DNA from: Acuticoccus yangtzensis
GTDB lineage: Bacteria; Pseudomonadota; Alphaproteobacteria; Rhizobiales; Amorphaceae
Direction: 5' to 3'
Assembly (NCBI RefSeq): GCF_001927245.1
Contig: NZ_MJUX01000001.1
Location: 620,001 to 684,000, forward strand
Length of the DNA: 64,000 nt
Numbering within the stretch: the first letter of the stretch is position 1; each line of letters starts with the position of its first letter. Shown here in pieces: positions 9,922-28,779 of the stretch. Made by a program: the position numbers and the translations under genes. The notes beneath the pieces were generated by a model. The model saw only the letters and a list, made by a program, of their open reading frames with translations. It searched no databases and was not told where the DNA came from.

Positions 9922-9960
9922 GGGTGGGTGGCCGAGTGGTTTAAGGCAGCGGTCTTGAAA
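9922..9960 (+). repeat. attL: 39-bp copy of the 5' half of tRNA-Ser(UGA)
   Basis: Thirty-nine bases identical to 28690-28728, running from base 1 of tRNA-Ser through the anticodon loop (ending CTTGAAA). After the core the two copies diverge. This is the left boundary of the integrated element; the right copy lies inside the intact tRNA. The sequence upstream of this copy (before 9922) should be the original chromosomal tRNA promoter. Confidence 0.9.
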
Positions 9961-10189
9961 GCCATGACTTCGGCTTATAAGTCAACGACTTAGGCTTTTG
10001 GGGGCTGCCAAACTTTATCTTTGCGTTTCAATGACTTGCGGGCACGTGCCAAACTTCTGGCATATGGACTCGCGCGAATTTCATGACGTGAGGCGCATTT
10101 TCAGGTGCCTGCCAATCAGCGCATATTGTCGGCTTAACGTGGCCGTACCTGTCGCGCCATGGTGATGCAGGCATTCGGGGCGAAAACCG
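9961..10189. other. Left-end att arm region with repeated TGCCAAAC sites
   Basis: No gene. TGCCAAACTT occurs at 10006-10015 and 10047-10056, and a degenerate TGCCAATC at 10110-10117. The same octamer occurs at the right end (28622, 28642). Near the boundary there are two direct GACTT(C/A)GGCTT copies and a TAAGTC/GACTTA palindrome (about 9977-9991). These look like integrase arm-type and excisionase sites. The function is inferred from position and repetition. Confidence 0.5.
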
Positions 10190-10927
10190 ATGAGTATTTC
10201 CGAGGTTGTCAGTTGGCTAGCGCCAGCCGCGAGCGGCTTACTTGGCGCATGGTTAGGTGCACGCGTAGTAAGCAGTCAAGCAAAGCTCTCAGAGATGGTT
10301 TGGATTGAAGGGCGCGTGCAGCAACTCAACGCTGGCAGAAGGTGTGCCCTAGACGTATTATTTGATCTTCGTATGCTTGGTCAGAGCTGGCTGATGCATG
10401 ATGATGCCGCAGTCGGAGAGGCTGTTGGCCGAATGCAGTTTTGGCGTGAGAGAATTAAAAATATAACGCATTTTCAAGAGGCTGTGGCAGTCGTGGTTCA
10501 AGATGTATATTGGGCTGATGGGGAGAGGAAATCAGTTTTAGAATGCTCGAATGCGCTATCTCGCTCCTTGATTAGATTGGTTCATGCCGTGGACTGTTTT
10601 GCGCCGACGGGTCCGGAGCAATCGTTCATTCTTCGATTTCGCAACAACGGCGCATTGCAGCGATGTGAGATATCCACATCGGACCACTCGCTTGATTTGA
10701 GAGGGTCTATTGAAATGCGTTCCCTCGAAAAGCGGGTTCAACATCTGCGAATTGCGATACACTCTTGTTTGGGCTGCATCGAGATGCATGAAAATAATTT
10801 GAATGGTATGTACAATACACGTGCAATCTCTGTATTCGGATATGCGCCGCAGCAGCAGTGGCGGCGAAAATTATGGCGCAACATCCCTCGCCCGTTTTCG
10901 AAACTTCATGGCAAATTTAAACGGTAA
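10190..10927 (+). CDS. Unknown membrane-anchored cargo protein, 245 aa
   Basis: No family recognised. One N-terminal hydrophobic segment (about 5-28: WLAPAASGLLGAWLGARVV) is followed by a soluble region with predicted helices and scattered Cys. It is visibly richer in A and T than its surroundings. It is the only plus-strand gene at the left end, next to attL, a common place for accessory or defence genes. A hairpin (10927-10950) follows directly. The start ATG 10190 is the first in the frame; the ribosome site is weak. Confidence 0.65.
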   Translation: MSISEVVSWLAPAASGLLGAWLGARVVSSQAKLSEMVWIEGRVQQLNAGRRCALDVLFDLRMLGQSWLMHDDAAVGEAVGRMQFWRERIKNITHFQEAVAVVVQDVYWADGERKSVLECSNALSRSLIRLVHAVDCFAPTGPEQSFILRFRNNGALQRCEISTSDHSLDLRGSIEMRSLEKRVQHLRIAIHSCLGCIEMHENNLNGMYNTRAISVFGYAPQQQWRRKLWRNIPRPFSKLHGKFKR

Positions 10928-10950
10928 GGCCCGACGTTTCCGCCGGGCCT
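10927..10950. terminator. Hairpin between convergent genes
   Basis: AGGCCCG / CGGGCCT, a 7-bp stem with a 10-base loop, directly at the end of the 245-aa gene and upstream of the end of the leftward operon. It probably ends the rightward gene and perhaps also the leftward one. No T tract. Confidence 0.5.
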
Positions 10951-10977
10951 CCATCCTGAAAATAATTGTGGGCTACA

Positions 10978-11277
10978 TCACGCGCGCCCGGCGGTCCGGC
11001 GCGCCCGTTCAGTCTCAACCTCGGCGAGAGCGACGTTCAGCATCCGATTGAGATGATGTTGCTTGATCAACATCCGCCGCGTATCTGCGCTGCAAGATGC
11101 CGGGCTGAATGCAGGGGTGCCACCCACCTCAGTGGCCAATTCCCGAATCATAACAGCCAACTCGTCATCGGTGACGTTGGCGATTTCCACCTCAGTGAGG
11201 CGGCGGAACCCGAACTCATCAACCGCTCGGTCCAACTTCGCTTCAAAGTACCGGTAGCGAAGAACCTCACCCATCAT
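10978..11277 (-). CDS. Hypothetical phage protein, 99 aa
   Basis: Small helical, charged protein without a recognised domain, last gene of the leftward structural operon. Its ATG overlaps the stop of the 70-aa gene (ATGA at 11274-11277). A copy of the AATAATT motif lies just beyond its stop. Confidence 0.6.
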   Translation of the reverse strand: MMGEVLRYRYFEAKLDRAVDEFGFRRLTEVEIANVTDDELAVMIRELATEVGGTPAFSPASCSADTRRMLIKQHHLNRMLNVALAEVETERARRTAGRA

Positions 11278-11486
11278 GCCGCCATCGGGAGAACGGGTGC
11301 GACTTCAACAGTTGCACCACCGACCCATGCCAGCACTTCCCCCGCGAATTCGGCGAGCGAGCACGGCATCTCGCCCTCAAACGACCAATCCGCAGGGTAA
11401 CCGGCGGCGGTGAGGACGGCATTGATAGATTCACGAAGGGTGTCGATCAGCGTAACGCTGATCGCATCGAACTGCGATTCAGTCAT
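11274..11486 (-). CDS. Hypothetical phage protein, 70 aa
   Basis: Small acidic protein (MTESQFDAISVTLIDTL...), no recognised family, coupled to the 99-aa gene downstream. A purine-rich GGAAA stretch precedes its start. It sits where tail-accessory or lysis genes of siphophages usually lie, but nothing in it supports either role. Confidence 0.55.
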   Translation of the reverse strand: MTESQFDAISVTLIDTLRESINAVLTAAGYPADWSFEGEMPCSLAEFAGEVLAWVGGATVEVAPVLPMAA

Positions 11487-11874: not shown

Positions 11875-12009
11875 CTAGAGAACCAAAATGACAATCAAAA
11901 GGGTCGCAACTAACTCGGCGGCGGCCAACCCCAGGCAGGCGTACATCATCGCACGCGTCTCTTCCACGTCAGCGGCGATGGCGTCGAGGGTGATCGCTGC
12001 ATCAGCCAT
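11875..12009 (-). CDS. 44-aa single-span membrane protein, possible holin
   Basis: A short frame begins at the A of the tape-measure stop codon (TGATG overlap) with a GGAGG five bases upstream of the ATG. The product starts MADAAITLDAIAADVEETR and has one hydrophobic helix (ACLGLAAAELVATLLIVILVL) to the end. Size, topology and place after the tape measure are compatible with a small holin-like or tail-accessory membrane protein; the family cannot be assigned. Two upstream Shine-Dalgarno features and the overlap make it likely to be translated. Confidence 0.6.
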   Translation of the reverse strand: MADAAITLDAIAADVEETRAMMYACLGLAAAELVATLLIVILVL

Positions 12010-14657
12010 CACCGCCTCCGGTCCAGGATGCCGCCGCTTCGCATCTGTTGCATCATCTCGCTCACCACCAGACTGCGGACTTCGGACTTCACCGCTTCAC
12101 CCATGGCCTTCGCCGCCTTGGCGTCGGCGACGGGATCGCCGCTCGCCTTGCTTTCGACGTTGATCACCGGGGCGAAGTTGATTGTCTGACCGCCAACCGC
12201 ACCATTCATGATCGGGGCAGAACCTGCACCAACTGCACCACCGGCGCGGAATGCGGGGAGACGGTCAATGGCGCCACTGTTGATGGCTTCCAGAAGCGCG
12301 CGATGCTTGTTCGCCTGTTTTGCACGAATGACATGTTCGCCATTACTCAACCGGGCCAGGATGGAATCCGAGGTTCCCGAACCTGCACCACGGATTGCGC
12401 CACCAACGGCATAGCCTGGAACGTTGACGGGGCCACCATCCGCGAAACCGAACAAAGCGAAGAGGCCACCGAAGCCGCCGAGACCGCCAAAACCACCACC
12501 ACCGCCCTCGGGCGGCTTGAACATATTTGCGAACAATTGTTGTGTGCCGATATCAATCATCTGTTGGGCAAGTCGCAAAAGCGCGCTGCGCAAAGCCTCG
12601 GTGGCATCCTTTCCAGCGGCGAGGTCTTGCAGGAAACCGGAGAGGGCGCCAGTGACGGCTTGGCCAAGTTGCTGCTGAAGCTCGGCGAAAGCCTCTTTGT
12701 TGCGTTTGTCCTCTTCGGTCTTTTTGTCGAGGGCCTGCTTCTCAGCCTCAATGGCATCGACGTGCGCATATCGCTGTTCGATGAGCGACGCGATCTGCTG
12801 ACCTTCGGCGCTGGTGGCGTCAACACCAGCCGTCCGTTGGGCATTCGCGATTTCCTGGTTCATCGCTGACTGGCCAACCAATTCATTTTCATGCGTCAGG
12901 TCGGCGATGAGATTTTGGACGGCAAGACGTTGGCGTTCGACTGCCTGTGCCGCTGCATCCCGGCTGGCAGACGCATTCGTCTGCGTCGTGGAAGCTGGCA
13001 CCTCGAAGTGCATCGCATCCTTCTTCGAAGTCCAATCACCGCCCCAGGACAGGCCGTGCCGCTTCGCCATCTCCGAAACATTCGGCGGCATGTCGGTGAT
13101 GAGGTTCGGCCCCATGGGGTTCTGCGCTGGATTGATGTCGATGGCGTTGCCGTGGGCATGATTCGACAGCTTGTTTGTTCCAGCGATATTCCTGTAGTTG
13201 TAGCCGCCGAGACTTGCGATCTTGTAGCCCGTCGCCTCCAACTCATTGATAAACGCCTGGAATTTTTGAGCGCGCTCGGCGTTGACCGATGCGGCAAGTC
13301 CACTAGCCGTCGAGATACGCGCAAGGCTTTGCCCGCCATTGGTGCTTGTCGACAACGGGACTACCTGTCCCGCTGGCGGCGCCGCTGGACCATAGGTTTG
13401 ACCGCCATTCACGGTGATGTTGAGCGGACCGCCTGCACCAGCTTTAAGGCGCGAAAGTTCTGCATTCGCCTTTTCGAGTTCGGCCCTGAGTGCGGCGGCG
13501 GTCTCCTTGGCAACCCGAAGCCCGGTGATCCCCATCTCGCTTTCAGGGAGTGCGGCGTATTTGTCGGCCTCCGCCAATTCCCTGGTCAGCCGTTCAACTT
13601 CGGTCTGTTGTTTCGCAATTGCACTACCACGGGCTGCATCAGCGACCGGGCCAGGATTGATCGTCATGCCTTCAGGGACAGACATCAAACCGTTGTTCGC
13701 AGCCCAAACGTTGATGCGTTCCCAGAACGATGAGTTACCCAAGTCGTCGGCGAATTTGTCGAGTTTCGACAACGCCTGATCCATCGCATCCACGATGGCG
13801 AATGCCGCTGTTCCAGCCTCAATGAAGGCGGTCTTCATCCGGGTGTTGATCGTGGTGCTTACATCGGCGATGCGCTGATCCAGCACAATCGCTTTCCCGA
13901 TCAAGTCCTCATCGAGAACCGCACCAACCTCATGGGCGCGGCTGCGGAGATCCGACATTGCCCCGTTGGCTTGGTCGAGCAACACCACGAACTGTTCGCC
14001 GCCGGTCCCGCCGAACAACTCATCGCTGATACGGATTTGAGCGGCACGATCAAATTGTTTAAGCTTATCAATGATTTCGTCGAAGAACCGGACTGGATCT
14101 TTGATCTTCTCACCGACCTGTGTGGCGCTGTAACCGAGCCGTTCGAAGGCTTCTTGCGCTGACCCTTTACCGGTAACGGCAAATTCATCGGCACGAAGCT
14201 GAAGCTCTTTAAAACCATCAACCAGCGCATCTTGAGAGATGCGGAACTGGCGCGCCACATAGCCGAACTCCTGGAAGGTCGTCGGATCGAGGCCCGCAAC
14301 CTTGGCCTCCTTGTTCATCTCGGCGACGGCGCCCGTTGCCTCCTTGATGCGGTTCATGAATTCACCGACGCCAGCGGCGGCGAACGCCCCCGCAAATGCG
14401 CCACGCATCGCTGTGAGATTGCCGGTTAACGCACGGAGGTGACCACCACCATTCCGGGCGAGGTTGGCCAATGCACGCTCACCAGCGGCACCACCTTTGG
14501 CGAGTTCTTTACCAATCTCTGCACCGGCACGGTCCGATGCTTTTTCGATGCCCTTCATCGCTTTGTCTGCACGCTTCTCAGCGGCATCAAGTTTCTTTTC
14601 GAAGTCCTTCACACGGGCTTCGAGGCTTACAATCAATCGGGTATCATCATTGGCCAT
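12009..14657 (-). CDS. Phage tail tape measure protein with embedded M15 peptidase, 882 aa
   Basis: Tape measure proteins set tail length and often carry muralytic domains. The N-terminal 110 residues are a helical coiled-coil region; about 115-290 match tape-measure repeats (VAGLDPTTFQEFGYVARQF). Residues about 475-570 form a D-Ala-D-Ala/L-Ala-D-Glu peptidase domain of the M15 type: SNHAHGNAIDI supplies His and Asp ligands and DAMHFEV the catalytic end. A Gly-rich segment and FADGGPVNVPGYAVGG, common near tape-measure C-termini, follow. No copy of AATAATT lies in this gene. It starts 13 bases after the terminase stop. Confidence 0.88.
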   Translation of the reverse strand: MANDDTRLIVSLEARVKDFEKKLDAAEKRADKAMKGIEKASDRAGAEIGKELAKGGAAGERALANLARNGGGHLRALTGNLTAMRGAFAGAFAAAGVGEFMNRIKEATGAVAEMNKEAKVAGLDPTTFQEFGYVARQFRISQDALVDGFKELQLRADEFAVTGKGSAQEAFERLGYSATQVGEKIKDPVRFFDEIIDKLKQFDRAAQIRISDELFGGTGGEQFVVLLDQANGAMSDLRSRAHEVGAVLDEDLIGKAIVLDQRIADVSTTINTRMKTAFIEAGTAAFAIVDAMDQALSKLDKFADDLGNSSFWERINVWAANNGLMSVPEGMTINPGPVADAARGSAIAKQQTEVERLTRELAEADKYAALPESEMGITGLRVAKETAAALRAELEKANAELSRLKAGAGGPLNITVNGGQTYGPAAPPAGQVVPLSTSTNGGQSLARISTASGLAASVNAERAQKFQAFINELEATGYKIASLGGYNYRNIAGTNKLSNHAHGNAIDINPAQNPMGPNLITDMPPNVSEMAKRHGLSWGGDWTSKKDAMHFEVPASTTQTNASASRDAAAQAVERQRLAVQNLIADLTHENELVGQSAMNQEIANAQRTAGVDATSAEGQQIASLIEQRYAHVDAIEAEKQALDKKTEEDKRNKEAFAELQQQLGQAVTGALSGFLQDLAAGKDATEALRSALLRLAQQMIDIGTQQLFANMFKPPEGGGGGFGGLGGFGGLFALFGFADGGPVNVPGYAVGGAIRGAGSGTSDSILARLSNGEHVIRAKQANKHRALLEAINSGAIDRLPAFRAGGAVGAGSAPIMNGAVGGQTINFAPVINVESKASGDPVADAKAAKAMGEAVKSEVRSLVVSEMMQQMRSGGILDRRR

Positions 14658-14669
14658 GTATCTGATTCC

Positions 14670-16260
14670 TTAAATGAAATGGATCGTTGAAATAGTTGTA
14701 TCGGTGTAGGCTGCGGCACGGGAGACAGCCATCGCGGCGGCAACGGCGCCATCGATGCGGTCCTTCGACTTTGCTTTATGGAAAGACCGGTTCTCGGCTT
14801 TGTCGGTTTCCACGGCGATGTTGTTGAAGTTCCACCGGAGAACTTCGTGGCCTGCATGGTGGAACTTGCCGCCGAGAATTGCACGTTCAAGTTCTGCGAT
14901 GGCGGGTGACATCGAACGCCAGCCTTGGCGGAAGGCGATGACGGGAAGCCCATCATCTTCAAGCCGCTGCATCATGGCGGATGCGCCGTAGGGATCGAAG
15001 GCGATCTCTTCGACGCGATACGTCTTTGCGAGTTCACGGATGTAGGTTTCCACACGTGCATAATCGACGACGTTCCCCGGCGTCGCCTCGATCAACCCTT
15101 CATTGCACCAACGCGGATAGGGTACGCCATCGCGGGCGGCACGTGCCTCTAGGTTCTCCGCCGGAACGAAGAAACGCGGACGAACCACATAATTATTCTC
15201 AGGATCGCGCCACACCGCGACAACGGCTGTCAGATCGGTCGTGCTCGACAGATCCACAGCGACGAAACAGGGCGCATCACCCAACGCCTCAACGTCCACC
15301 TCACCGGCACACGCATCGTAGACGGCCATGTCGACGAACGGCGACGTGGAATGCTCCAGCCACATATTCAGGTGCAGTTGGCGAAATGAATCCCGTTTAC
15401 CAGGGTTTGTGCGCGCCTCGCGAGCCGCGATCCGCATTCCCTCAATGTCCGGGAAGCCGTGGATGAGGCCGGGGTTTGTGCGGTGCCAAACCGCTTCATC
15501 CTCCCACGACTCCGAAAGATCGGATTCAAACAAAATCGGTAACACGGATGGATCGTCGACTTCACCAGATGCGACTGCACGGGCGTATTGCATCGTTTCC
15601 CAGGCATGGTTGGTCTGGCCGCGCCCGGCGGTGGTGGCGATCACCATGAGGCTGTTGCGCGTTTTCACCAGCGATGTCTCCAGGACATCGAACAGGTCGC
15701 GCTTCGGCCATGCGTGGAGTTCGTCGACCAGCACGAACTGTGGTGTCCGCCCATGCTGTTTGCCAGCATCAGCCGCGATGGCCTGCATGCGGGTACGGTC
15801 CCGTAGATGCTCCAAATAATTTCGGGAATCCGTGACGCCGACGTGAGCGTTCAGCCGCTTATCGGCGAGGATGATGTTCCGGGCCTCCTCGAAGCCTACA
15901 CGGGCGGTGTTACGATCACTCGCGGCGAACTGAACTAACGACACGTTCTGGACCGATGGTATGGAGAAGCGCGAGGCCAGCGCCGAACGAAGTTTTCCGA
16001 TTACCGCGCGGTATCAGAAGGACCACTTTGCGAACGATGCGATCACCGTTCGGATGGCGCGGGCCGTAGATGCGGCGCACCACTCTCTCTTGCCAGGGCG
16101 CAAGATCGAACGCCTGACGCGGCAATGTCGACAATGGATGCCGCAGCGCCCGGAGCGCCCGGACGGCACGCTCACCGTGCCCCAACGGGTCCGGGATGTC
16201 GGACCCATCGAACACCCACGACGGGAAGGTGTCACAACCCGAGAGCGGCGAGATCTTCAT
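14670..16260 (-). pseudogene. Terminase large subunit broken by a frameshift
   Basis: HK97-type TerL, the packaging ATPase-nuclease, is split over two frames. The N-part (16260 to stop at 15916) carries the Walker A-like LLIPRGNRKTSFGAG. The C-part (frame open from 15944 to 14670) carries Walker B FVLVDELHAW and nuclease Asp residues (VDLSSTTDL, RIDGAVAAA). Homology passes from one frame to the other near 15940-15955; skipping one base there gives a continuous protein. I see no slippery heptamer. Either the prophage is inactivated, the base is a sequence error, or expression needs recoding. ATG 16260 overlaps the TerS end. Confidence 0.8.
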
Positions 16261-16600
16261 CTTGGTCTGACGGTTCTGTTCCGACGCGCGAACGTGAAGT
16301 CGGGGATAGACCAAGCTCACCGGCGAGTTGGCGCTGAAGAAGTTGGGCTTGGGAAAGGGTGCCGTTGCGCTGCTTGTCGCCGCGTCCAGACGAAATAATT
16401 TCGACATTGGCGCAGGCGACACAGTAGGAGGCGAGACAATCGAGGTCCGTTTCGGCGAGAACACGGCGCTCAACGAGGCGTTTAGATACACGTTTCCAGA
16501 CTGCCGCCGCCTCCGGGGCGAGCCATGCCGGGGCCTTCGGGGTGCGCGTCAGAAGGCCCGTCTCGGTCGGCTTCGGGGTAGGCTTACGACCGCGCGCCAT
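16232..16600 (-). CDS. Phage terminase small subunit, P27 family, 122 aa
   Basis: DNA-recognition subunit of the packaging motor. The N-terminus (ARGRKPTPKPTE) and the LAPEAAAVWKRV and DLDCLASYCVA blocks are typical of P27-type TerS. ATG 16600 overlaps the upstream stop (TAATG). Immediately followed by TerL, as usual, but both lie downstream of the connector genes instead of before the portal. Confidence 0.78.
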   Translation of the reverse strand: MARGRKPTPKPTETGLLTRTPKAPAWLAPEAAAVWKRVSKRLVERRVLAETDLDCLASYCVACANVEIISSGRGDKQRNGTLSQAQLLQRQLAGELGLSPTSRSRVGTEPSDQDEDLAALGL

Positions 16601-16917
16601 TACGTCCGCTCCCGGCAACGCAGTTCGAGACCGCGACGGCGTCCAAGCTCGACAGCCTCAATAATTTCGAATGTACGGCCATCCATCGCCACACGGTCCT
16701 CAAGGGACACATCCGGGCGCCAGCGGAGGCGGAATACAACTATACCTTCGGCGCCTTCGCCCTCGGCCCGGAGGAAGTCGCGCGTCGTGTTCGTAACGCG
16801 TTCGGCGTGCGTGGTGGCGTACTCGCTCCACGTCTCCACGGTTGCACCGATGCGGTCCTTGCTAAGGGTGCGACGGCTCAAAATAATTGTGCGATCCAGC
16901 TTCCCGGCGGTGATCAT
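16600..16917 (-). CDS. Phage head closure (head-tail adaptor) protein, 105 aa
   Basis: SPP1 gp16-like small adaptor that seals the connector after packaging. MITAGKLDRTIIL, then ETWSEYATTHAERV and the C-terminal RTFEIIEAVELGRR are family signatures. The start overlaps the upstream stop (ATGA). Two AATAATT motifs lie inside it, encoding Ile-Ile pairs. Confidence 0.78.
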   Translation of the reverse strand: MITAGKLDRTIILSRRTLSKDRIGATVETWSEYATTHAERVTNTTRDFLRAEGEGAEGIVVFRLRWRPDVSLEDRVAMDGRTFEIIEAVELGRRRGLELRCRERT

Positions 16918-17324
16918 GCGTAGGTCTCCACCAAGGCGGTGAAGCCCACGATGGCATGTGCAAGTTCGGGGTCTGCACCATCGCGCATTACGCGTGTTCC
17001 ATCCCACCGAATATCAACAAGATGATAGGCGGGGTCCGCGATGCTAATCTCTTCGACGGCTTGGCGGATGAGATCGGCGAGGTAACGGACGGTTGCTGTG
17101 CCTGGTTCACGTGCGAAAATAGCGATATCCACGGCCATTCGGGAGTGGCGACGTTCGAATGTGAGGCCCGCAGGAACCTCAATAATTGAGCCGATGCGGA
17201 TCGCGGGGATACCGTTGAGGGCACGCCCTTCGCCGATGTTATCGGCGGGAACAAGGGCGGTGATGTCCGGTGCATTGATGAGGGTGCTGTAAAGCTCCGC
17301 CTGAAGCTCCAGGGCGGCGCTCAT
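16914..17324 (-). CDS. DUF3168 tail completion protein, 136 aa
   Basis: Gp17-like tail terminator/completion protein. Typical features are LQAELYSTLINAPDITALV at the N-terminus, the R-P-like IPAIRIGS strand, and the RYLADLIRQAVEE helix. Overlaps both neighbours by 4 bases, as expected in a connector operon. Confidence 0.78.
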   Translation of the reverse strand: MSAALELQAELYSTLINAPDITALVPADNIGEGRALNGIPAIRIGSIIEVPAGLTFERRHSRMAVDIAIFAREPGTATVRYLADLIRQAVEEISIADPAYHLVDIRWDGTRVMRDGADPELAHAIVGFTALVETYA

Positions 17325-17704: not shown

Positions 17705-17705
17705 C

Positions 17706-17981: not shown

Positions 17982-18112
17982 GGTCGGTAAATTCCTTGTT
18001 GAGAATGATTTGCAGGTAAAACATTATTTGCCGTGAAATTTGTACGAAGGGGGACGGGCGGTCCAGGTTAAGTCTATGAAAAGTCTCGGATATCCCCCCC
18101 GGCTAAAGATTG

Positions 18113-18876: not shown

Positions 18877-18881
18877 AATAA

Positions 18882-19814: not shown

Positions 19815-19816
19815 GG

Positions 19817-21849: not shown

Positions 21850-22091
21850 TACGGGTATCCCACCAGCCCGGTCGCTGTGGTCCCGGTGGCAAATACCTTC
21901 TTGAAAACGCCAGGGACGAATCCCGCCGGGACAGGAAGCGTGACTTCGGCGCCCTCGAAGGTGATGGCGCGCAGGTTGCCAGCGGCCTGCACAGAGATGC
22001 CGCGTACGACCTTCGGCAAATCGGCGGAATTATTCGGGGTGATCGTGAACGGCGCCGTTGAAAGGTTTGACCTAAGATGCTGAAAACTCAT
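21849..22091 (-). CDS. Capsid spike base protein, rcc01079 family, 80 aa
   Basis: Matches the small spike base protein of the Rhodobacter gene transfer agent: APFTITPNNSADLPKVVRG, VTLPVPAGFVPGVF and ATGTTATGLVGYP. In RcGTA the base anchors head spikes that bind the host capsule. Here it is in the head operon between portal and capsid. Its start lies five bases after the upstream stop, inside the palindrome AATAATTATT, with GAGGA upstream. I do not see the spike fibre partner. Confidence 0.75.
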   Translation of the reverse strand: MSFQHLRSNLSTAPFTITPNNSADLPKVVRGISVQAAGNLRAITFEGAEVTLPVPAGFVPGVFKKVFATGTTATGLVGYP

Positions 22092-22096
22092 AATAA

Positions 22097-22414
22097 TTAT
22101 TCCTCAGAAATATCGTCGTCGTTCAGACCCATGAGCGCCGCGAGGGTCACGAGTGCGATGAGGCGCGCCTTCTCCAACCCCATCGGGATCAGATACGTCT
22201 CGGCCAATTCAGCGGCGCGTTCGGGATCGCAACCACCGCCAATGAGCGACAATCTCAGGATCGTCTTGAGATGTGCGACCCGGTAATCCTGCGCATGGAG
22301 CGCCCTGATTAGATGCGGAACCCCGGCATCGGTTTGACGCTCAAGTTCCTCGATCAGCGGCAACGTGAGGGCGAAGGCCCGCTCGGCGTCACCCCAATAA
22401 AAATTATTGTTCAT
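22097..22414 (-). CDS. GTA gp10-like / tail chaperone-like protein, 105 aa
   Basis: NNNFYWGDAERAFALTLPLIEELER followed by a helical second half resembles GTA gp10-type proteins and the first domain of the 310-aa fusion, so the element has two related copies. The protein is complete at normal length. It overlaps the 90-aa gene by 11 bases. Its presence between portal and capsid is atypical. Confidence 0.6.
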   Translation of the reverse strand: MNNNFYWGDAERAFALTLPLIEELERQTDAGVPHLIRALHAQDYRVAHLKTILRLSLIGGGCDPERAAELAETYLIPMGLEKARLIALVTLAALMGLNDDDISEE

Positions 22415-22676
22415 CGGCCACTCGTTTCGGCGCCCGATGGATTGCCTCGGTGATCTGATAGCGCGTCATGGACGGTCCATGCTCAAACACGAACTTGCGC
22501 GCTTTTGTGTCTGCCTGCGCCTCTGTCATGCCTTCGTCGACAAAGTAGTCACGGACCGCGCCATAAAGGGCTTCTAAGTGCGCACCCTTGGGCTTGGCGC
22601 GGCGAGCGTGGGTCTCGCGCGCGACGCGGCGGACGAAATCTAGGGCGAAGTGCAACGGGTTGGTCTTCGGCTTCAT
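22404..22676 (-). CDS. Hypothetical phage protein, 90 aa
   Basis: Basic, helical small protein starting MKPKTNPLHFALDFVRR. ATG 22676 overlaps the portal stop (ATGA). A C-terminal TRYQITEAIHRAPKR segment may bind nucleic acid. No known family recognised; it is conserved in position as a portal-coupled protein only in this window. Confidence 0.55.
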   Translation of the reverse strand: MKPKTNPLHFALDFVRRVARETHARRAKPKGAHLEALYGAVRDYFVDEGMTEAQADTKARKFVFEHGPSMTRYQITEAIHRAPKRVADEQ

Positions 22677-23905
22677 TGGGTTTCCTCCTGCGGCTGTGCC
22701 GTGGCGGTCTGCGTGTAAGGGTTCGTGAGGGCATCCGCCTCCGGCGAGGGATGGAGCGGCATGTTCTCGATTGCGCGCACCTCGTTCGCCGTCAGCACGC
22801 CAGCGCTCCGGGCGATCTGGTAGGACTGCCAACGGGCCAGCGTGTCGGACTTCACGAACTCATCGGTCTCGAACTCGAAGAGGAAGGCGCCACGTTCTTC
22901 GGGCGTCAGGAGCACGCGGCGGTAAGCGCTGCACCATTCGCGCAGCCAGGGCGCCAGCGAGTAATCGAGGAAGGCGCGGTTCATCTCCGCCGCGTTGGAC
23001 CACGTCGCACGCCCCATCTCGAATGCGAGGTGCGGCGGAACATTGAAGTGGCGGCAGATGGCAACGTTCGCCTGGATCAGAAGCTTCTCAGCTTCGTTCT
23101 CGGCGAGGGGCTGTTGGATCGTCTGATACGTCGCACCGTTGTCGAGGACTGCGGTACGGCCTGCTTTTTCGCCGCTGAAGCCGTCGTTCCATGATGTGCG
23201 GATGCGGCCAAGGGAATCGTCGCCAAGGGCCTTCGGGAACTGAAGGACACCGCCAGGCCGCGAATTGTTGGCGAAGGTGGTGGAGACGGTGCGCGCCATG
23301 ACTATCGCCGTTGCGATGTCGTCCTTCGCGAGGTGGATGAGGGACACGCCCGTCACACCGTCATCCGCACGGACGCCGGAGGTGATGTGCAGAATGTCAG
23401 AATAATTTTCGAACCTGACGGCACCATTCGCGAGGGCGATGCGGTAACGCGGCTCACCGGTGAAATCGTCGGTCTCAACGGACACGGCGTGCGGGGCGAG
23501 ACGAATGAGTTCAACGGGGCGCCCGGCGAGGTCTCGGTTGACGTAGGCGAAGCCGTTGCCCGTAAGGATTGCATCGCGGGTGATGGTGGCTCGGAAGGCG
23601 GTGGCGCTCATCCATTCCGTGGCGTCTCGGTGTGCCAGGGCGTAGCCGGGGTGGTCGGTGGCGGGCTGTTTGGCGCCGTCGACACGCTCGTACAGTTTGC
23701 AGGGGATGGAGGTGCCGTTCGCAAGTAGGGCGAGGCAGATGGCGACGGTCGCGCATTTGGGCGCCGTTGCAGCGGTGACGTTGATGCCGGACGTGGTGTT
23801 AGGCGCAAGCAACCATTCCAGGCCGAACAAGCCCGTGGGCGGTGCGCTTTTCGTTTCGATCATGTCGACGGACGCAATGCCGTCGTCGTCCCGCTCAATG
23901 GTCAT
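22673..23905 (-). CDS. HK97-family phage portal protein, 410 aa
   Basis: Dodecameric DNA entry ring of the head. NGFAYVNRDLAGRPVELIRL, the DILHITSG strand, the FANNSRPGGVLQ block and RHFNVPPHLAFEMG are HK97 portal signatures; length is typical. ATG 23905 is preferred over an in-frame TTG at 23926. It is the first gene of the leftward structural operon, so the promoter should lie in 23906-24243. Confidence 0.85.
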   Translation of the reverse strand: MTIERDDDGIASVDMIETKSAPPTGLFGLEWLLAPNTTSGINVTAATAPKCATVAICLALLANGTSIPCKLYERVDGAKQPATDHPGYALAHRDATEWMSATAFRATITRDAILTGNGFAYVNRDLAGRPVELIRLAPHAVSVETDDFTGEPRYRIALANGAVRFENYSDILHITSGVRADDGVTGVSLIHLAKDDIATAIVMARTVSTTFANNSRPGGVLQFPKALGDDSLGRIRTSWNDGFSGEKAGRTAVLDNGATYQTIQQPLAENEAEKLLIQANVAICRHFNVPPHLAFEMGRATWSNAAEMNRAFLDYSLAPWLREWCSAYRRVLLTPEERGAFLFEFETDEFVKSDTLARWQSYQIARSAGVLTANEVRAIENMPLHPSPEADALTNPYTQTATAQPQEETQ

Positions 23906-24243
23906 AATAACGTCCAGGTCGTTCAAAAGATGTAAATAATTGAAGGGTCACCCTAGCCGCTGCCTCTTCACAGCGACGGCTAGGGTGACTTTGCGCAATC
24001 AGTCGAGGAAGGAAAAACTCGACTGTGCATATTATGACATAACTAAAGATCAACTAATAGTGGTCTGTATCGTTACAATGATGTAATTTATTGAATATTT
24101 GTGAGTCTTGATGCTGATCTTCATAATCCAGGCCTTGGGGAATTAGCCACCAAGGTGCGCATCGTCTTAAGCGCGATTAGAAGGCCGCTGGATGGCCTTG
24201 GATGTTCGCCGCTGTCATCACCTATCCCGGAGCGTGAAGGCCA
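23906..24243. promoter_or_regulatory. AT-rich control region before the structural operon
   Basis: 338 bases without a gene, clearly AT-richer than the flanks (about 24025-24130). It contains one AATAATT (23935), a 13-bp perfect stem GTCACCCTAGCCG/CGGCTAGGGTGAC (23947-23989), AGTCGAG/CTCGACT (24001-24024), and AAGGCC/GGCCTT (24181-24199). The first stems can be terminators or operator-like structures between the antirepressor and the late operon. A late promoter on the minus strand is expected here, but I could not fix its boxes. Confidence 0.55.
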
Positions 24244-24256
24244 TCAGGCGGCCTTC
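24236..24256. terminator. Hairpin across the antirepressor stop
   Basis: GAAGGCC / GGCCTTC, 7-bp stem and 7-base loop, covering the stop of the Bro-N gene. A closely similar hairpin is at 24181-24199 and another AGGCCG hairpin at about 11818-11834. No T tract. Confidence 0.45.
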
Positions 24257-24690
24257 CTACGCGGTCGTGATTCGCCGGGACTTGGATGATGGGGTGTAGC
24301 GTTTTGCTGGTTGCCTACGGCGGCACCAACAAATTTTCTGCGGGTGCTCCGCCTGACCCAGTTCTGGAATTCACGGGCCTCCGGCTTGTCGGAGCGCATG
24401 ATGAGCTTGTACAGGCCGCTTTCGCTGATCACAGTCGCGGTCGACATGCCTTTACCCCCGATCTGACCGGGGGTAAGGCGGCGCTGATCGGATCGCGGGA
24501 CGCTTGTGAGGTTCTTCGAGACGCCAGCGGCAAGGCCAAAACCGAGCACGCGGCAGACATCGGCGGCGACGAACCAGGGCTGGCCGTCGATCATGGTTGT
24601 GCGGAGGTGCATGCCATAGCACCTATCGCCAAAATGATCCATTGATCGGTAGATGTATTGTTGGGATCGAGGGCCGTCGGCTGACGCCAT
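24244..24690 (-). CDS. Bro-N domain antirepressor, 148 aa
   Basis: Phage antirepressor type: HLRTTMIDGQPWFVAADVCRVLGF at residues about 28-52, then SESGLYKLIMRSDKPEAREFQNWV, the classic Bro-N ending. The C-terminal DNA-binding or KilAC domain of larger members is missing. It probably modulates a repressor. I find no recognisable CI-type repressor elsewhere in the element. The start is uncertain (ATG 24690 or 24642). Confidence 0.78.
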   Translation of the reverse strand: MASADGPRSQQYIYRSMDHFGDRCYGMHLRTTMIDGQPWFVAADVCRVLGFGLAAGVSKNLTSVPRSDQRRLTPGQIGGKGMSTATVISESGLYKLIMRSDKPEAREFQNWVRRSTRRKFVGAAVGNQQNATPHHPSPGESRPRRKAA

Positions 24691-24738
24691 TCCGGGGATG
24701 GTGAGGGATGGAGGGTGCGAAGCACCCGACTTCGTCCA

Positions 24739-24892
24739 TTCCGGGATGTGGGTGTGTAGATGTCACGTTTTGGGGCTAACCCTTCCCCTATCTCTTTCAG
24801 AGATATTAAGGAAAAACCTTCTTAATATGAACTACGTTCATAGGGGAAAGGTTAGCCCCAAAACGTGACATCCCCTATCCACACCCCGGAGT
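24739..24892. repeat. Large inverted repeat with inner hairpin
   Basis: Core arms of 33 bases (24759-24791 and 24840-24872) match with one mismatch; weaker similarity extends them to about 50 bases each. The 48-base centre contains ATATTAAG / CTTAATAT and AAGG/CCTT. The right arm begins inside the end of the 401-aa gene. Possible roles are replication origin, double-strand or RNA regulatory structure, or remnant of a small inverted-repeat transposable element. No flanking direct duplication could be identified. Confidence 0.75.
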
Positions 24893-26080
24893 GGCCATCG
24901 CTTTCTCGCCTCCCTCCGCAACGAGGGCGACAAGGAAGTCCAAATCGCTGATCCCATACTCCCGGCGATCCATGACCGATGTTTCTTCTGAAGTGTCTGG
25001 GGCGCCCCAGGATTCGCGTTCCGCCTCTACCGCCACAACGATAGCCTCCGGCTCGACATGCGCTTCCTGAGCCTCCTGAGAGGCTTCCAGGGACATAATA
25101 ATTGCGGCCTTCGCTGCACGCTCTTTCTCCCGCTGCTTCCGTTTCCGCTCCGCAGGCGTCATGGCGATCTTCGGCCCAACCTTCGCCCGGCTCTTCCGTC
25201 CGACACGCTCGTAATGCCGCTGAGTTTTTTCGCGGTTCGCGGCCTTGCGAGCTTCGTCGAATGGGTATGCTGAACGGAACATCTCCACCGCCATTGCATC
25301 GAACGCATCGGCATTCTCGATCCATGCTTCAACGAAGGGATGGTCGTCGCCGACGTGCTCGATCAACTCGGCGCACTGTTTCATCAACGTCGTGCAGAGA
25401 CGGTCGTGGGTGACGGTATCATCACGCCATAGACGCGGATCGCCTGAGAGGTATCCAAGCCGAGGATCAAGGTTCGAAGGTGCCTTGCGCCTTGCATCGC
25501 GTGCGTCAAGTTCTTCCACGACGTGTTTGCGCGCAAGCTCACGGTTCATCGCGTTGTCGGCGAGACCGCCATCAGCCAGCGCATCCCGGATCATTTTCTC
25601 TTCAATAGCTGCACGCCGCTTCTTCGGGTCGTCACGCGCAAAAATCTGGTTCAACTGGAACTTGTCGTGAGCCCAGCCGAGTGCGCCCAGGTAGAAGTGA
25701 ATGATAGTGGAGCCCACGGACTTTCGCTCATAGGGGAGTCCCATGATGTCGAGGGTCTGTGTGACTCGGACGACACCGTTGCGCTGGGGGGTGTCATGCC
25801 ATTGGGCCATCTTGAATGGCTTCCGACGAATGACACCATGCTTCGTTTTGAGGTGCCACTTCATGCTTTCCTGAAGCATATCGAACACTTCGTCCGCTCG
25901 CTGCATCAGAGGCTTTCCAGCGTTCGAGGGGTGGCACATACGAATTGCATCCCTCTCCCGGCCGATCACTTCCTTCGGAAAGATCAGGCGAGGGCACAGA
26001 AGCCAATACGCCTCGTCCCGCGCAAATCGGACGCGATCAATTACGGATTTTCTCTTGAAATCATCTTCGGGCTGTGGCAT
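24875..26080 (-). CDS. Unknown 401-aa phage protein, possible replication protein
   Basis: Function not recognised. The N-terminus is basic (MPQPEDDFKRKSVIDRVRF), the middle has aromatic and His residues (THDRLCTTLMKQCAEL), and about 315-345 is a strongly charged coiled-coil (MTPAERKRKQREKERA). Its size, position at the head of the early leftward operon, and the large inverted repeat at its 3' end are like plasmid or satellite initiator proteins, but I see no diagnostic motif. ATG 26080 chosen; an upstream extension reads through a terminator hairpin and is rejected. Confidence 0.6.
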   Translation of the reverse strand: MPQPEDDFKRKSVIDRVRFARDEAYWLLCPRLIFPKEVIGRERDAIRMCHPSNAGKPLMQRADEVFDMLQESMKWHLKTKHGVIRRKPFKMAQWHDTPQRNGVVRVTQTLDIMGLPYERKSVGSTIIHFYLGALGWAHDKFQLNQIFARDDPKKRRAAIEEKMIRDALADGGLADNAMNRELARKHVVEELDARDARRKAPSNLDPRLGYLSGDPRLWRDDTVTHDRLCTTLMKQCAELIEHVGDDHPFVEAWIENADAFDAMAVEMFRSAYPFDEARKAANREKTQRHYERVGRKSRAKVGPKIAMTPAERKRKQREKERAAKAAIIMSLEASQEAQEAHVEPEAIVVAVEAERESWGAPDTSEETSVMDRREYGISDLDFLVALVAEGGEKAMATPGCG

Positions 26081-26107
26081 GGTGTTCTTATTCGATAATT
26101 GCCTTTT

Positions 26108-26145
26108 GCCCGGTCCACGGTCGCACGTGGCCGGGCTAATTTTTA
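26108..26145 (+). terminator. Strong hairpin with T tract on the plus strand
   Basis: GCCCGG-CCACG-type stem (26108-26136) followed by TAATTTTT. Reading direction is plus, yet both neighbouring genes run minus, so it would stop antisense transcripts or act in both directions between the 66-aa and 401-aa genes. Confidence 0.55.
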
Positions 26146-26168
26146 TCCGTGATACGATGGCGCCAGCC

Positions 26169-26369
26169 TTACGGCGCCAAGCTCGTTGGCGCTCCGTTAC
26201 CTGCGAGAATTTGTCTTGCGGTGGCGATGGCCTCCCGCTCAGCTTTGCGGCGAGCCCGCATGCGGCGCATCCCAATCGCTGATTGAGCGCGATTGCGCTC
26301 ATGGTAGGCAGGGTCGGCGCTGTGGTTTGCGCGGTAACGGCGTGAACGCTCGGTGCTTGAAAGAGCCAT
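26169..26369 (-). CDS. Small basic protein, 66 aa
   Basis: MALSSTERSRRYRANHSADP followed by GMRRMRARRKAEREAIATARQ. It is highly basic and helical, like small phage DNA-binding or HNH-accessory proteins. ATG 26369 has GGAG nine bases upstream. It is the first gene of the leftward early transcription unit, facing away from xis. Confidence 0.6.
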   Translation of the reverse strand: MALSSTERSRRYRANHSADPAYHERNRAQSAIGMRRMRARRKAEREAIATARQILAGNGAPTSLAP

Positions 26370-26638: not shown

Positions 26639-26899
26639 GTGAGTGCAGAACCGTCTAGCTACCCGATCCGTCTTCTTCGCCGAGACCGTGCCGCAGCGTT
26701 CTGCGGTGTTTCCCCGACCACATTCGATACCTGGATCGCGCTCGGGCATATCCCCAGCGGGCATCGTGTCGGCGGCGTCGTTGTGTGGGATGTCCGCAAG
26801 CTAGATCTCGCCATTGACCGGCTCTTGTACGGCGTCGCCAGCAATGAGAACCTGGTAGACTCCGGTGCGAGCTTGGATGGCAGCGAATGGGACGCGTGA
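26639..26899 (+). CDS. AlpA/excisionase-like helix-turn-helix protein, 86 aa
   Basis: MerR/AlpA-type winged helix: RDRAAAFCGVSPTTFDTWIALGHIPSGHRVGG is the recognition motif (shown in family terms: AAAFCGVSPTTF then W). It would direct excision or activate int. GTG 26639 start; ribosome site GGGGAAAG is distant. It overlaps the integrase start by 13 bases, supporting a single xis-int unit. Confidence 0.7.
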   Translation: MSAEPSSYPIRLLRRDRAAAFCGVSPTTFDTWIALGHIPSGHRVGGVVVWDVRKLDLAIDRLLYGVASNENLVDSGASLDGSEWDA

Positions 26900-27924
26900 T
26901 CCTGAAGTACGTCGAGACGTTCACGGACCGTCTGGGACGAACGAAAACCTACTTCCGACACAAGGGGAAGCGGACACCGCTTCCCGCGTCCGACGATCCT
27001 GCGTTCGCGAGCGCATACAAGAAGTGTCTCGCCTCCATCGGTGGTCTCGCCACGACCAACACGAAGGGCGGGGCGGACACGCTCGGCTGGCTGGTCCGAG
27101 AGTATCAGGCGTCACCGGAGTTCAAGAAGCTCGGTGATCGCACAAAGAAGGACTACCTCGCCATCCTGTCCAGGATCGCCGAAGAGCACGGCGAGAAGGG
27201 ATGGCGCTCGCTGAACAAGTCGCGGGTGATGAAGCACATCCGCGATCCCTGGGCGGACAAGCCGCGCCGGGCGGATACGCGCGTTGCAGTCCTGTCGGCG
27301 GTGTACGGCTGGGCCATCGCGCGGGACATGACCACCGATAATCCATGCAAGGGTGTCCCGAAGCTCTATGAGAAGGGCGGGACGGACGGTTACCGCGCAT
27401 GGACGGCGGACGAGGTGACGCACTTCCTCGCGCAATGCGGCGACCGAGAGTTTACCGTGTTCTTGCTCGCCGTCTATACCGGTCAGCGCCCCGGCGATCT
27501 CCGTCGGCTGACGTGGTTCCAGTACGATGGCACGACGTTGAACGTCGGCCGTCAGAATAAAACCAAACAGGCCGTGCGCATCCCCGTTCATCCTGTCCTG
27601 AAGGCGCATCTCGATACTCTTCCGCGCGGTGAAGGGACGATCCTCCAGAACCGCTATGGGAAGGCGTATTCAGAAGACGCGCTCACCTCCATGTTCCGGT
27701 CGGCGCTCGTTCGGATGGAGATGCCGAAGGGGGCTGTCATGTACGGGCTACGCGCGACGCACGCCGATACGCTCGCGGAGGCGGGTGCTTCACCTCACCA
27801 GATTGCGGCGACGACGGGCCACAAGACGCTCGCGATGGTCCAGCACTACACCCGGAACGCTTCTCAGCATCGTCTTGCGACCGCGTCTGTTTCTCTGCTG
27901 CCAAACTTTCTAAAGGATCAGTAA
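26887..27924 (+). CDS. Tyrosine recombinase integrase, 345 aa
   Basis: Catalyses site-specific recombination at tRNA-Ser. The N-terminal DNA-binding region precedes a core with Arg in YTGQRPGDLRRL, YGLRATHADTLAEAG (Y-x-x-R instead of H-x-x-R), TGHKTLAMVQHY with His and the Tyr nucleophile. ATG 26887 overlaps xis. An arm-like TGCCAAACTT lies inside the end of the gene (27899-27908). It points towards the attR-bearing tRNA. Confidence 0.88.
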   Translation: MGRVILKYVETFTDRLGRTKTYFRHKGKRTPLPASDDPAFASAYKKCLASIGGLATTNTKGGADTLGWLVREYQASPEFKKLGDRTKKDYLAILSRIAEEHGEKGWRSLNKSRVMKHIRDPWADKPRRADTRVAVLSAVYGWAIARDMTTDNPCKGVPKLYEKGGTDGYRAWTADEVTHFLAQCGDREFTVFLLAVYTGQRPGDLRRLTWFQYDGTTLNVGRQNKTKQAVRIPVHPVLKAHLDTLPRGEGTILQNRYGKAYSEDALTSMFRSALVRMEMPKGAVMYGLRATHADTLAEAGASPHQIAATTGHKTLAMVQHYTRNASQHRLATASVSLLPNFLKDQ

Positions 27925-27934
27925 CGCACGAAGA

Positions 27935-28465
27935 TCAGCAGGGATTAATGTTAAAGGCATATGCTCGGGGATTTATGTTTCCCATCCAGTAGAACGTTGC
28001 AAGTGCATCAGCTTGCTCAGTGGGAAGTTCGTAAGATTCGCCCGTGAACTCAAGGGGGTTACAAGAGCCATCAGAACCAGCGCATAACATTATTGATGCA
28101 TAAACAGACGTGCCCCGGCTCAATAAAATTGGATTAGATCCCTTCGCAAGTGTCATATTGTAAGTGCCTTGCTCGACATACCAAGAGCCAATATTTTCAT
28201 GCTTCGAGCTCCCGGCCGGCACCCCATAAACTTCCAGATAGAAGTAACCTTGGCAATTGTTAGTTGCATAGAGTGAGGCTGTAGATCCATAGCTTCGGTC
28301 GTAGATGCAGTTGTTGCCCGATATCCGACCGCCAGTGTGTCTACAGGCCAGATTGTCGTACTCTTCGGCTCGATTGTCACTTTGCCCATTCGCGACTGTA
28401 AGGTGCGACCCGATTAGTAGCGAGGATATCACAATTAGTGCCGAGTACCGCATGAATTCAACCAT
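27935..28465 (-). CDS. Secreted Cys-rich protein, candidate cargo, 176 aa
   Basis: A signal peptide is visible (MRYSALIVISSLLIGSHLTVANG), so the mature protein is exported. It has six or more Cys (LACRHTGG, NNCIYDR, NNCQGYFY, MLCAGSDGSC), no known fold recognised, and is AT-richer than chromosomal genes. It converges with integrase (10-base gap). Starts are ATG 28465 or 28453. This is a typical position for a lysogenic conversion (moron) gene expressed independently of the lytic genes. Confidence 0.65.
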   Translation of the reverse strand: MVEFMRYSALIVISSLLIGSHLTVANGQSDNRAEEYDNLACRHTGGRISGNNCIYDRSYGSTASLYATNNCQGYFYLEVYGVPAGSSKHENIGSWYVEQGTYNMTLAKGSNPILLSRGTSVYASIMLCAGSDGSCNPLEFTGESYELPTEQADALATFYWMGNINPRAYAFNINPC

Positions 28466-28621
28466 AAATCTATCTACGAGAATCCAGTCTGGGTGACCGA
28501 AATGCCGATAAAAATACCACAATGATACCCAGATGCTAGTATAAGTAGTATGCGCTAGATCGCTTGGCAAGCTCGGATTTCGTGTTAGTAAGGCAACCGG
28601 CGATGAAACGAGAACGGGGAC

Positions 28622-28649
28622 TGCCAAACCCGCCCGGAAAGTGCCAAAC
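28622..28649. repeat. Right-end TGCCAAAC pair
   Basis: TGCCAAAC at 28622-28629 and 28642-28649, 20 bases (about two helical turns) apart, 41 bases from the tRNA. They mirror the sites at the left end and are plausible integrase arm sites. Confidence 0.5.
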
Positions 28650-28689
28650 CGGGACTGAGTGAGGCGAAAAAGACCAGCGTGTTCAATGT

Positions 28690-28779
28690 GGGTGGGTGGC
28701 CGAGTGGTTTAAGGCAGCGGTCTTGAAAACCGCCGTGCGTGCAAGCGTACCGTGGGTTCGAATCCCACCCCACCCGCCA
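28690..28779 (+). tRNA. tRNA-Ser(UGA)
   Basis: A 90-base type II tRNA: acceptor GGGTGGG/CCCACCC, anticodon stem GCGGT/ACCGC with loop CTTGAAA (anticodon TGA), long variable arm, T arm GTGGG-TTCGAAT-CCCAC, and encoded CCA. The first 39 bases duplicate attL, so the 5' half now belongs to the integrated element while the 3' half is chromosomal. It decodes UCA (and, by wobble, UCG) serine codons. Confidence 0.93.

Follow-up and report, generated by a model that had tools for sequence, protein, structure and literature searches.

A probable capsid-forming satellite with its own tail shaft genes, integrated in a tRNA-Ser gene of Acuticoccus yangtzensis

The window analysed here is a stretch of 64,000 nucleotides from Acuticoccus yangtzensis (contig NZ_MJUX01000001.1, positions 620,001 to 684,000), and it contains an element of 18.8 kb bounded by a direct repeat. 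The repeat is exact over 39 bp (9922-9960 and 28690-28728, both +) and extends to 42 bp with one mismatch; the repeated sequence makes up the 5' portion of a tRNA-Ser(TGA) gene, intact at 28690-28779, within which the second copy lies. The att repeats that an earlier note had proposed as the limits of these 18.8 kb are therefore real. In a genome of the same genus (G003), the 24 bp found to the left of att copy 1 continue directly into an intact tRNA-Ser gene, with 89% identity to the window over 9898-9963 and 94% over the tRNA. A fully collinear empty site was sought in the genus and none was found, the wider flanks of the element lying apart in G003. In 1-kb steps, the G+C content is 0.52-0.63 within the element and, with few exceptions, 0.64-0.76 beyond its ends. 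The sequence shows an integrase/att unit integrated in a tRNA gene.

The element encodes a tyrosine integrase of 345 aa (26887..27924, +; PF00589, E=2.6e-14) and, beside it, a small HTH protein (26639..26899, +). The latter had been described as AlpA-like; the HTH gene is there, but its AlpA/excisionase-like character rests on a weak match, below our cut-off (HTH_17, E=0.012), and the call is stronger in a relative, G083 (phrog_66 excisionase, E=9.9e-5). A Bro-N antirepressor-like regulator (24244..24690, -; PF02498, E=1.3e-18; phrog_130 anti-repressor) and an inverted repeat (24759..24872) with two 33-nt arms, 97% complementary and 48 nt apart, were also found. The predicted protein orf475 (24875..26302, -), 475 aa as listed and with a true start probably internal, has no Pfam or PHROGs match; among 150 genomes it has one weak relative, in the same-genus genome G005, and no homologue was confirmed in viral contigs. 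No significant family match was obtained for orf99 (10978..11277, -) and orf245 (10190..10927, +) in Pfam and PHROGs, nor for orf230 (27935..28627, -), a possible cargo gene.

Head, neck and packaging genes all lie on the - strand. They comprise a portal (22673..23926; PF04860, E=1.1e-75), a small protein with a weak resemblance to DUF6074 (22404..22676, start chosen within ORF 22404-22832; PF19551, E=0.015) and a prohead protease fused to an HK97-type major capsid protein (20293..21849; PF05065, E=1.2e-56, and PF04586, E=1.9e-9). A second group contains a gp6-like head-tail connector (17706..17981; PF05135, E=2.7e-11), an HK97-gp10-like tail completion or neck protein (17321..17803; PF04883, E=6.6e-13), a gp17-like tail terminator (16914..17324; PF11367, E=6.5e-13; phrog_176), a head closure protein (16600..17007; PF05521, E=4.5e-20) and the terminase genes. 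Of these, TerS belongs to the Terminase_4 family (16232..16618; PF05119, E=6.9e-12), and TerL is split by a frameshift into an N-terminal piece with its frame broken at the 3' end (15916..16491), matching the N-terminal region of the relatives' TerL, and a C-terminal piece (14670..15944; PF20441, E=1.2e-37, and PF03354, E=8.8e-9). Because the TerL frame is broken, the window copy may be inactive.

Tail genes, likewise on the - strand, begin after the portal with a protein of the GTA-gp10 type (22097..22414; Phage_TAC_11, PF11836, E=4.8e-15), probably a tail assembly chaperone, and an 80-aa protein matching phrog_12296, labelled tail fiber protein (21849..22091; E=4.4e-15). The tail tube, or major tail, protein (19817..20245) was recognised by phrog_158 (E=1.1e-9) and by our family model (E=4.1e-34). 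The next ORF (18882..19814) joins in one frame a probable tail assembly chaperone, its N-terminal part of about 200 aa, and an HNH endonuclease (phrog_7493, phrog_2115, phrog_2323, PF01844). The match to phrog_2115, a tail protein family, has E=8e-4; a structural model for the chaperone part shows weak similarity to predicted tail assembly proteins of phages, and no PDB fold match was obtained for it at E 0.001. A gpM-like minor tail protein (18520..18957; PF05939, E=2.3e-23) is followed by orf177 (18113..18646), without family match and with a relative at the same place in G005. The tape-measure protein (TMP) has 882 aa (12009..14657; phrog_10574, E=4.5e-110; PDB tape measure 8zdo). Pfam and PHROGs profiles bear out the integrase, head module, connectors, TerS-TerL, tube, TMP and gpM-like protein that had been read from the letters. 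The TerL frameshift, the GTA-gp10-type protein, the M15 domain described below and the chaperone in frame with HNH are features additional to that reading.

Residues 492-553 of the TMP form an M15 domain of the L-Ala-D-Glu peptidase type (PF13539, E=2.9e-17; PDB peptidase 2vo9), so that a peptidoglycan hydrolase domain is present in the element. We considered whether this domain marks the TMP as helper-derived and rejected the idea, since either end of the protein, N-terminal as well as C-terminal, has its best matches in satellites. Close similarity to phage TMPs is confined to the M15 stretch (67-74% in the five best matches), for which no match was found among 160 satellite loci. A second TMP of this design occurs in L004, a satellite-like contig with a different gene order.

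In the same region no tail tip, receptor-binding or endolysin gene had been recognised. For the tip this holds: no tip-like gene was found in the 24 element ORFs scanned with Pfam, nor in the 21 scanned with PHROGs, apart from the 80-aa phrog_12296 protein; for the hydrolase it has to be qualified by the peptidase domain within the TMP. Neither a holin, nor another lysis gene, nor a primase was recognised by Pfam and PHROGs in the window ORFs searched. These absences rest on profile searches and on ORF size, in ORFs longer than about 75 aa, and a holin could hide below this length. The PF13550 profile gave no match in G558 despite a second prophage there, and is therefore not fully sensitive. 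Since no tip was found, the tail tip is probably borrowed from another phage.

Relatives of the element form a family found, by record title, almost entirely in Hyphomicrobiales and Rhodobacterales. Both ends were mapped for 28 elements, which have lengths of 16,718-18,768 bp (mean 17,497, SD 509) and occupy various tRNA genes in many genera. Our models matched portal, TerS and TerL in all 28, TMP, head closure protein and HK97-gp10-like protein in 27, tail terminator and integrase in 26, the Phage_TAC_11 protein in 24, the tube in seven and the gpM-like protein in six; tube, gpM and TMP occur together in a subgroup formed by the window element, G147, L275 and L290. In the TerL tree, the TMP-bearing label is clustered without forming one clade. 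The TerL proteins of G083 and G135 are identical to those in Methylopila jiangsuensis and Lutibaculum baratangense records. The gene order, with the portal first and TerS-TerL after the connectors, had been called abnormal; the order itself is as described, but it is the usual one in the family, and TerS-TerL after the connectors is also seen in the capsid-forming island of E. coli EDL933 discussed below.

The boundaries of the relatives were evaluated in two ways. In one att search 20 genomes were extended, chosen from 80 loci, and all gave an att pair; because 17 of the 20 were picked for an integrase near a tRNA gene, this is not a random sample. As a control, left and right ends of different elements were paired; 29 of these 380 mismatched pairs reached 18 bp (median 12), because the same tRNA genes recur, as against 20 of 20 own pairs. 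A search of 77 of 80 loci (three without a called portal were dropped) gave a repeat of at least 16 bp in six. Five of these are at tRNA genes; the sixth, L138, is not and was left out. Most other loci stop short of the element's right end.

These data bear on whether the element is a decayed prophage, a deletion derivative that has lost former distal tail, lysis and replication genes. The frameshifted TerL and the shortness of the element would fit such a history. Against it, the same core content and a size of 17-18.8 kb recur at different tRNA genes in many genera, TerL is one ORF in most relatives, and the close relative in G005, which runs off its contig and was left out of the 28, keeps the same gene order with an intact TerL. 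It had been proposed that finding the same module within a normal complement of 35-50 kb in related genomes would make this simply a deletion derivative; all 28 mapped elements are instead of 16.7-18.8 kb. The conserved family largely refutes a one-off deletion, and we consider the decayed-prophage explanation improbable; the family may be live and the window copy, given the frameshift, one that died recently. Among the 80 IMG/VR loci retained, eight lie in records longer than 30 kb. Four of these records carry two portals belonging to one Pfam family, and so a second head module; the other four have a single portal, among them L227 and L236, whose TMP-bearing modules have unmapped ends. A gpJ-type profile matched in one of the eight.

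The head, neck, tube, chaperones, gpM-like protein and TMP, all present in the window, could also belong to a very small autonomous temperate siphophage, with tip proteins too divergent to be recognised (for instance orf177, orf99, orf245 or the TMP C-terminus) and the M15 domain replacing the tip hydrolase. However, clustering of 26 elements revealed no shared unassigned gene of tip size. In the 25 TMP-bearing elements measured, 0.26-5.6 kb separate the TMP from the far att site, with a longest ORF of 68-575 aa (in L139 just 257 bp follow the TMP), and J-type proteins of alphaproteobacterial phages and prophages have frames of 738-1349 aa. The low detection of tube and gpM among the mapped relatives and the lack of a recognised lysis or primase gene also speak against autonomy, since an autonomous tailed phage has a complete tail with tip or receptor-binding proteins and lysis genes. 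Moreover, no close isolated phage appeared: the TerL of relative L115 has matches in 2,261 of 50,697 phage records, all below 60% identity (best listed 35%), and the window capsid protein in 379, likewise below 60%. We thus regard an autonomous phage as unlikely. The 18.2-kb sewage phage record MW091529, noticed for capsid similarity, was rejected as a relative, being a partial genome with another layout.

A phrog_32 distal-tail assembly protein, presumably gpI-like, occurs in one of the 28 elements and 12 of the 160 loci, and an AAA_25 helicase/primase-like gene shows the same counts. One of the proteins in the J-type and distal-tail scan, from L290, turned out to lie inside a TMP and was set aside. 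Non-core content was scanned in 140 ORFs, out of 257 candidates, from 25 relatives, using a crude gene caller that probably took some wrong frames. DUF927 was found in two of the 140; among the families listed, defence genes were single cases: MmeI-type and BglII restriction-modification, DNA methylases, AbiJ, Abi_alpha, SieB and a PtuA-like protein. The listing covers 25 of the 96 PHROGs families and 25 of the 39 Pfam ones, which leaves room for a lysis or tip gene of rare occurrence.

From gene content, the likely reading is that the window element is an integrated satellite similar to the capsid-forming phage-inducible chromosomal islands (cf-PICIs), with its own head, neck, packaging genes and tail shaft, which would build a chimeric tail with the tip of a helper. 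Upon helper phage infection or induction the element would excise and be replicated by helper or host enzymes, and its own HNH, TerS and TerL would fill its own heads; the uniform size of 17.5 kb suggests a fixed small head. The TMP of the element, loaded by chaperones and closed by a terminator that are likewise its own, would then be mounted on tip and baseplate proteins of the J/K/L class from the helper, which would also provide lysis. Most family members would need a helper tube too, and the window element would supply tube and gpM itself. Concerning a helper in the same genome, neither of the two J-bearing regions (C5 and C23) has a TMP related to that of the element by tblastn.

The tip might alternatively come from a domesticated gene transfer agent (GTA) of the host. 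GTAs are common in Rhodobacterales and Hyphomicrobiales, to which almost all hosts belong by title; the post-portal protein is of the GTA-gp10 family (PF11836), which also has a member in the GTA-like cluster of this genome, and that cluster has a J-type protein too. However, the TMPs of element and cluster are unrelated by tblastn, and phages infecting these hosts could provide a tip just as well; we judge a GTA tip improbable.

If the satellite reading with a helper tip is correct, the element may tentatively be taken, with rather less confidence, to represent a class of satellites that own a tail shaft (tube, gpM, TMP, chaperones and terminator) and steal only the tip. The same satellite shaft could then be fitted with tips from different helpers, so that host range would be set anew with every cycle; the window, G147, L275 and L290 subgroup would contain the most self-sufficient tail-pirating satellites known to us. 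The data suggest that a large satellite family of alphaproteobacteria, uniform in size, has tail assembly factors as a core trait, and that some of its members would encode nearly the whole shaft and bridge satellites stealing whole tails and complete phages. It would become testable which minimal phage part must be stolen, here proposed to be the tip setting host range. Public databases may also hold complete satellites of 16-19 kb among their "incomplete prophages". The novelty lies in the breadth of the family, its tight size and the near-complete shaft of the window member; the principle of a satellite TMP in chimeric tails is already known, since PLE satellites were shown in 2026 to build such tails and putative TMP genes were mapped in some cf-PICIs (PMC12987554).

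Among known systems, the island of E. coli EDL933 (NZ_CP008957 1680329-1694760) shares with the window element an integrase and a small HTH gene at one end, HK97-type protease, capsid, portal, head closure, connector, HNH, TerS and TerL, with TerS-TerL last, a small size and host genes on both flanks. By its layout we take it to be EcCIEDL933, a name that the record does not carry. The capsid, protease, portal and connectors of its own, the HNH-TerS-TerL set (with the TerL frame broken) and the integrase, att repeats and AlpA-type regulator (the last weak) place the window element close to cf-PICIs. It differs from the island in that the portal precedes the fused protease-capsid, HNH sits in front of the connectors rather than behind them, and no SSB or primase of the DUF927 type, present in the island, was recognised. 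It adds a tail terminator, HK97-gp10, two chaperone-like proteins, tube, gpM-like protein and TMP, while the island lists no tail gene.

With RcGTA-type agents the element shares the gp10-type protein family (PF11836). A GTA, however, is a non-mobile cluster without integrase and with its own tail tip; the window element has integrase, att sites and TerS-TerL, and no GTA tail-tip gene was recognised in it. The TMP of Sinorhizobium phage phi2LM21 is 48% identical over residues 104-292, but this is a 46.6-kb phage with J, fibres, a putative holin and a lambda-type head.

The Streptomyces satellites MulchRoom and MiniFlayer, as presented in the relevant passages of PMC10690885, also have their own capsid and packaging genes and no recognised primase; for MulchRoom a helper-encoded tail is inferred there, MiniFlayer has a tail fibre module, and no significant homology of the two to PICIs is reported. 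In the definition cited in the same paper, cf-PICIs have no tail genes of their own and only steal tails (PMC10690885); tube, chaperones, gpM-like protein and TMP are present in the window, and its gene content supports the earlier note in likening it to a capsid-forming satellite with tail genes beyond the textbook type. The PLEs of Vibrio cholerae (PLE11) share satellite TMP and tail assembly chaperone genes, and chimeric tails with satellite TMP were shown for them experimentally, the TMP being demonstrated in virions (PMC12987554). PLEs differ in that their capsid proteins and most of their tail components come from ICP1 (PMC12987554), whereas the window element encodes a whole head and a tube. 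A satellite TMP is also shared with the cf-PICIs in which putative tmp genes were mapped (PMC12987554, Extended Data Fig. 10b), and these may include the family of the window element.

The element at 9922-28728 is flanked by an exact 39-bp direct repeat corresponding to the 5' part of a tRNA-Ser(TGA) gene, the tRNA being intact at the right end, and close to it lie the integrase (26887-27924) and a small HTH protein. All structural genes are read leftward: portal, a small DUF6074-like protein, a GTA-gp10-type protein, an 80-aa protein, a fused prohead protease-major capsid protein and tail tube, and then a chaperone in frame with HNH, a gpM-like protein, orf177, gp6 connector, HK97-gp10, tail terminator, head closure protein, TerS, TerL and the tape-measure protein (TMP). 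The TMP contains an M15 peptidase domain, whose sequence matches include solved L-Ala-D-Glu peptidases, and to its left there are 2.1 kb with two called genes, orf99 and orf245. Among the window ORFs of at least about 75 aa (24 compared with Pfam and 21 with PHROGs) the searches gave no match to any tail-tip, receptor-binding, holin or primase family, with the exception of the 80-aa protein, which has the PHROG label 'tail fiber protein'.

A strong inverted repeat (24759-24872; its two arms of 33 nt are 97% complementary and separated by 48 nt) lies between orf475 and a Bro-N gene and could be an operator, a terminator or an origin. Four copies of a 22-nt sequence (at 17984, 20246, 21886 and 24646; 73-100% identity) were also seen, two of them immediately preceding the start codons of gp6 and tube; perhaps this is just a common ribosome-binding region, or else a late control element. 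Outside the element, G+C falls locally to 0.58 at 57001-58000, possibly because of another insertion.

The same core gene order was found over 16 kb in G005, a genome of the same genus identified through the fused capsid protein (identity with the window 52% for the capsid and 77% for the C-terminal piece of TerL), and the same protein led to more distant relatives in G083 and G147, in each of which the bounding repeats lie at tRNA genes with 18.0 kb between them. A profile (A1) built from these three and the window was scanned over species genomes and IMG/VR, yielding 136 and 299 confirmed relatives respectively, of which the best 80 of each were kept. From the record names, we take the hosts of 78 of the 80 genome records (best 80 of 136) to be Rhodobacterales or Hyphomicrobiales; the remaining two are MAGs titled 'Proteobacteria bacterium' and 'Exiguobacterium profundum'. 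Among the loci listed, the usual order is integrase, portal, TAC11 (the GTA-gp10-type family), protease-capsid, chaperone, HNH, connectors, TerS, TerL and TMP. In each of the 20 genome loci that were extended, a biased rather than random choice from the 80, the two ends share a repeat of 18-33 bp and one of them lies at a tRNA gene. Together with five further loci, G083, G147 and the window, they form a set of 28 elements measuring 16,718-18,768 bp (mean 17,497, SD 509), that of the window being the longest.

TerL is mostly a single ORF in relatives (cluster median 538 aa over 137 loci; 542 aa in G005, 536 aa in G083, 541 aa in G147), while that of the window is broken into two ORFs that overlap and differ in frame (15916-16491 and 14670-15944). 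The window copy may therefore be dead, or there may be an assembly error at that point.

By family models, with the gpI-like and AAA_25 labels checked on examples, portal, TerS and TerL were each found in 28/28 elements, TMP, head closure protein and HK97-gp10 each in 27, tail terminator and integrase each in 26, TAC11 in 24, tube in 7, gpM in 6, and gpI-like and AAA_25 helicase/primase-like proteins in one each; by tblastn on 26 of these elements, all 26 have HNH and 20 have the chaperone. These counts place TMP and chaperones in the core, tube and gpM marking a subgroup; tube, gpM and TMP occur together in the window, G147, L275 and L290, and the only element lacking TMP is L186. On a TerL tree of 93 rows, made by a quick method and having long branches, the TMP bearers cluster (7 changes, where shuffled labels give 17.6) but are not one clade, and TMP-less elements lie near the base and within.

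Several observations favour a satellite as the probable nature of these elements. In 25 elements the distance from TMP to the far att is 0.26-5.6 kb, and the longest ORF there is at most 575 aa, compared with J-type (tail-tip) frames of 738 aa (locus L010), 876 aa (phi2LM21) and 1294-1349 aa. In the extreme case, L139 (Xanthobacter sp. NM-59), the att follows the TMP gene after only 257 bp, and so this side of the TMP has no space for a gene of the distal tail. Among non-core ORFs (140 of 257 candidates scanned, from 25 relatives' elements) we found isolated examples of defence genes, namely restriction-modification, Abi, SieB and PtuA-type ones. Neither TerL of the relative L115 nor the window capsid has a match of at least 60% identity in phage records, so that no isolated phage is close.

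Concerning other phage-like loci, the genome of the window holds at G000:C23:312001-332000 (L106) portal and capsid matches, a gp10-type protein (PF11836), a 186-aa TMP-like protein and a J-type protein (PF13550), a cluster that we take, from its layout, to resemble RcGTA. A second prophage-like region (G000:C5:1-16000, L105) has a J-type protein (PF13550) and a CHAP-domain endolysin/tail-lysozyme-like gene; no TMP related to that of the window was found in it. The satellite-like contig IMGVR_UViG_2791354961_000007 (L004) carries an integrase-like and a small HTH-like ORF (both by inspection), a primase (PriCT-2) and a TMP that precedes portal and capsid and whose M15 stretch shares 74% identity with that of the window; the arrangement is different and the TMP design is the same. 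The 58-kb record IMGVR_UViG_2582581307_000002 contains a family satellite together with a second prophage (L257, L005), and two portals also occur in three other records above 30 kb; such records may point to helper-satellite neighbours.

What is shown for the family is its gene content, its boundaries, its size and its conservation. We infer that its members, like the PLE satellites of Vibrio cholerae, would insert their own TMP into chimeric tails, but on their own small heads; most would borrow tube and tip from a helper phage, and the subgroup of the window, having its own tube, gpM and TMP, would borrow only the tip. A phrog_32 tail assembly protein, present in 12 of 160 loci, would fit interference with tip assembly, and may equally be the leftover of a fuller tail.

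In lambda, tail assembly starts with the formation of the tip from J, I, L and K; H (the TMP) joins next with G/GT and M after it, and only then does the tube grow. The window element has counterparts from H onwards, whereas no gene was recognised as equivalent to J, I, L or K. A further observation in favour of a satellite is that an island of E. coli EDL933, presumably the capsid-forming PICI (cf-PICI) EcCIEDL933, likewise has TerS-TerL last, after portal, connectors and HNH; it differs in that no tail gene is listed. The founding cf-PICI paper is reportedly Alqurainy 2023. No description of the present family, as alphaproteobacterial cf-PICIs or small TMP-bearing prophages, was recognised among the open-licence PMC papers listed. 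Our background on cf-PICIs comes from PMC10690885 and PMC11389934, and PMC12987554 mentions putative tmp genes in some of them. According to the same paper, PLE satellites place their own TMP and a hub protein into tails otherwise made by the helper, and also encode a chaperone (PMC12987554).
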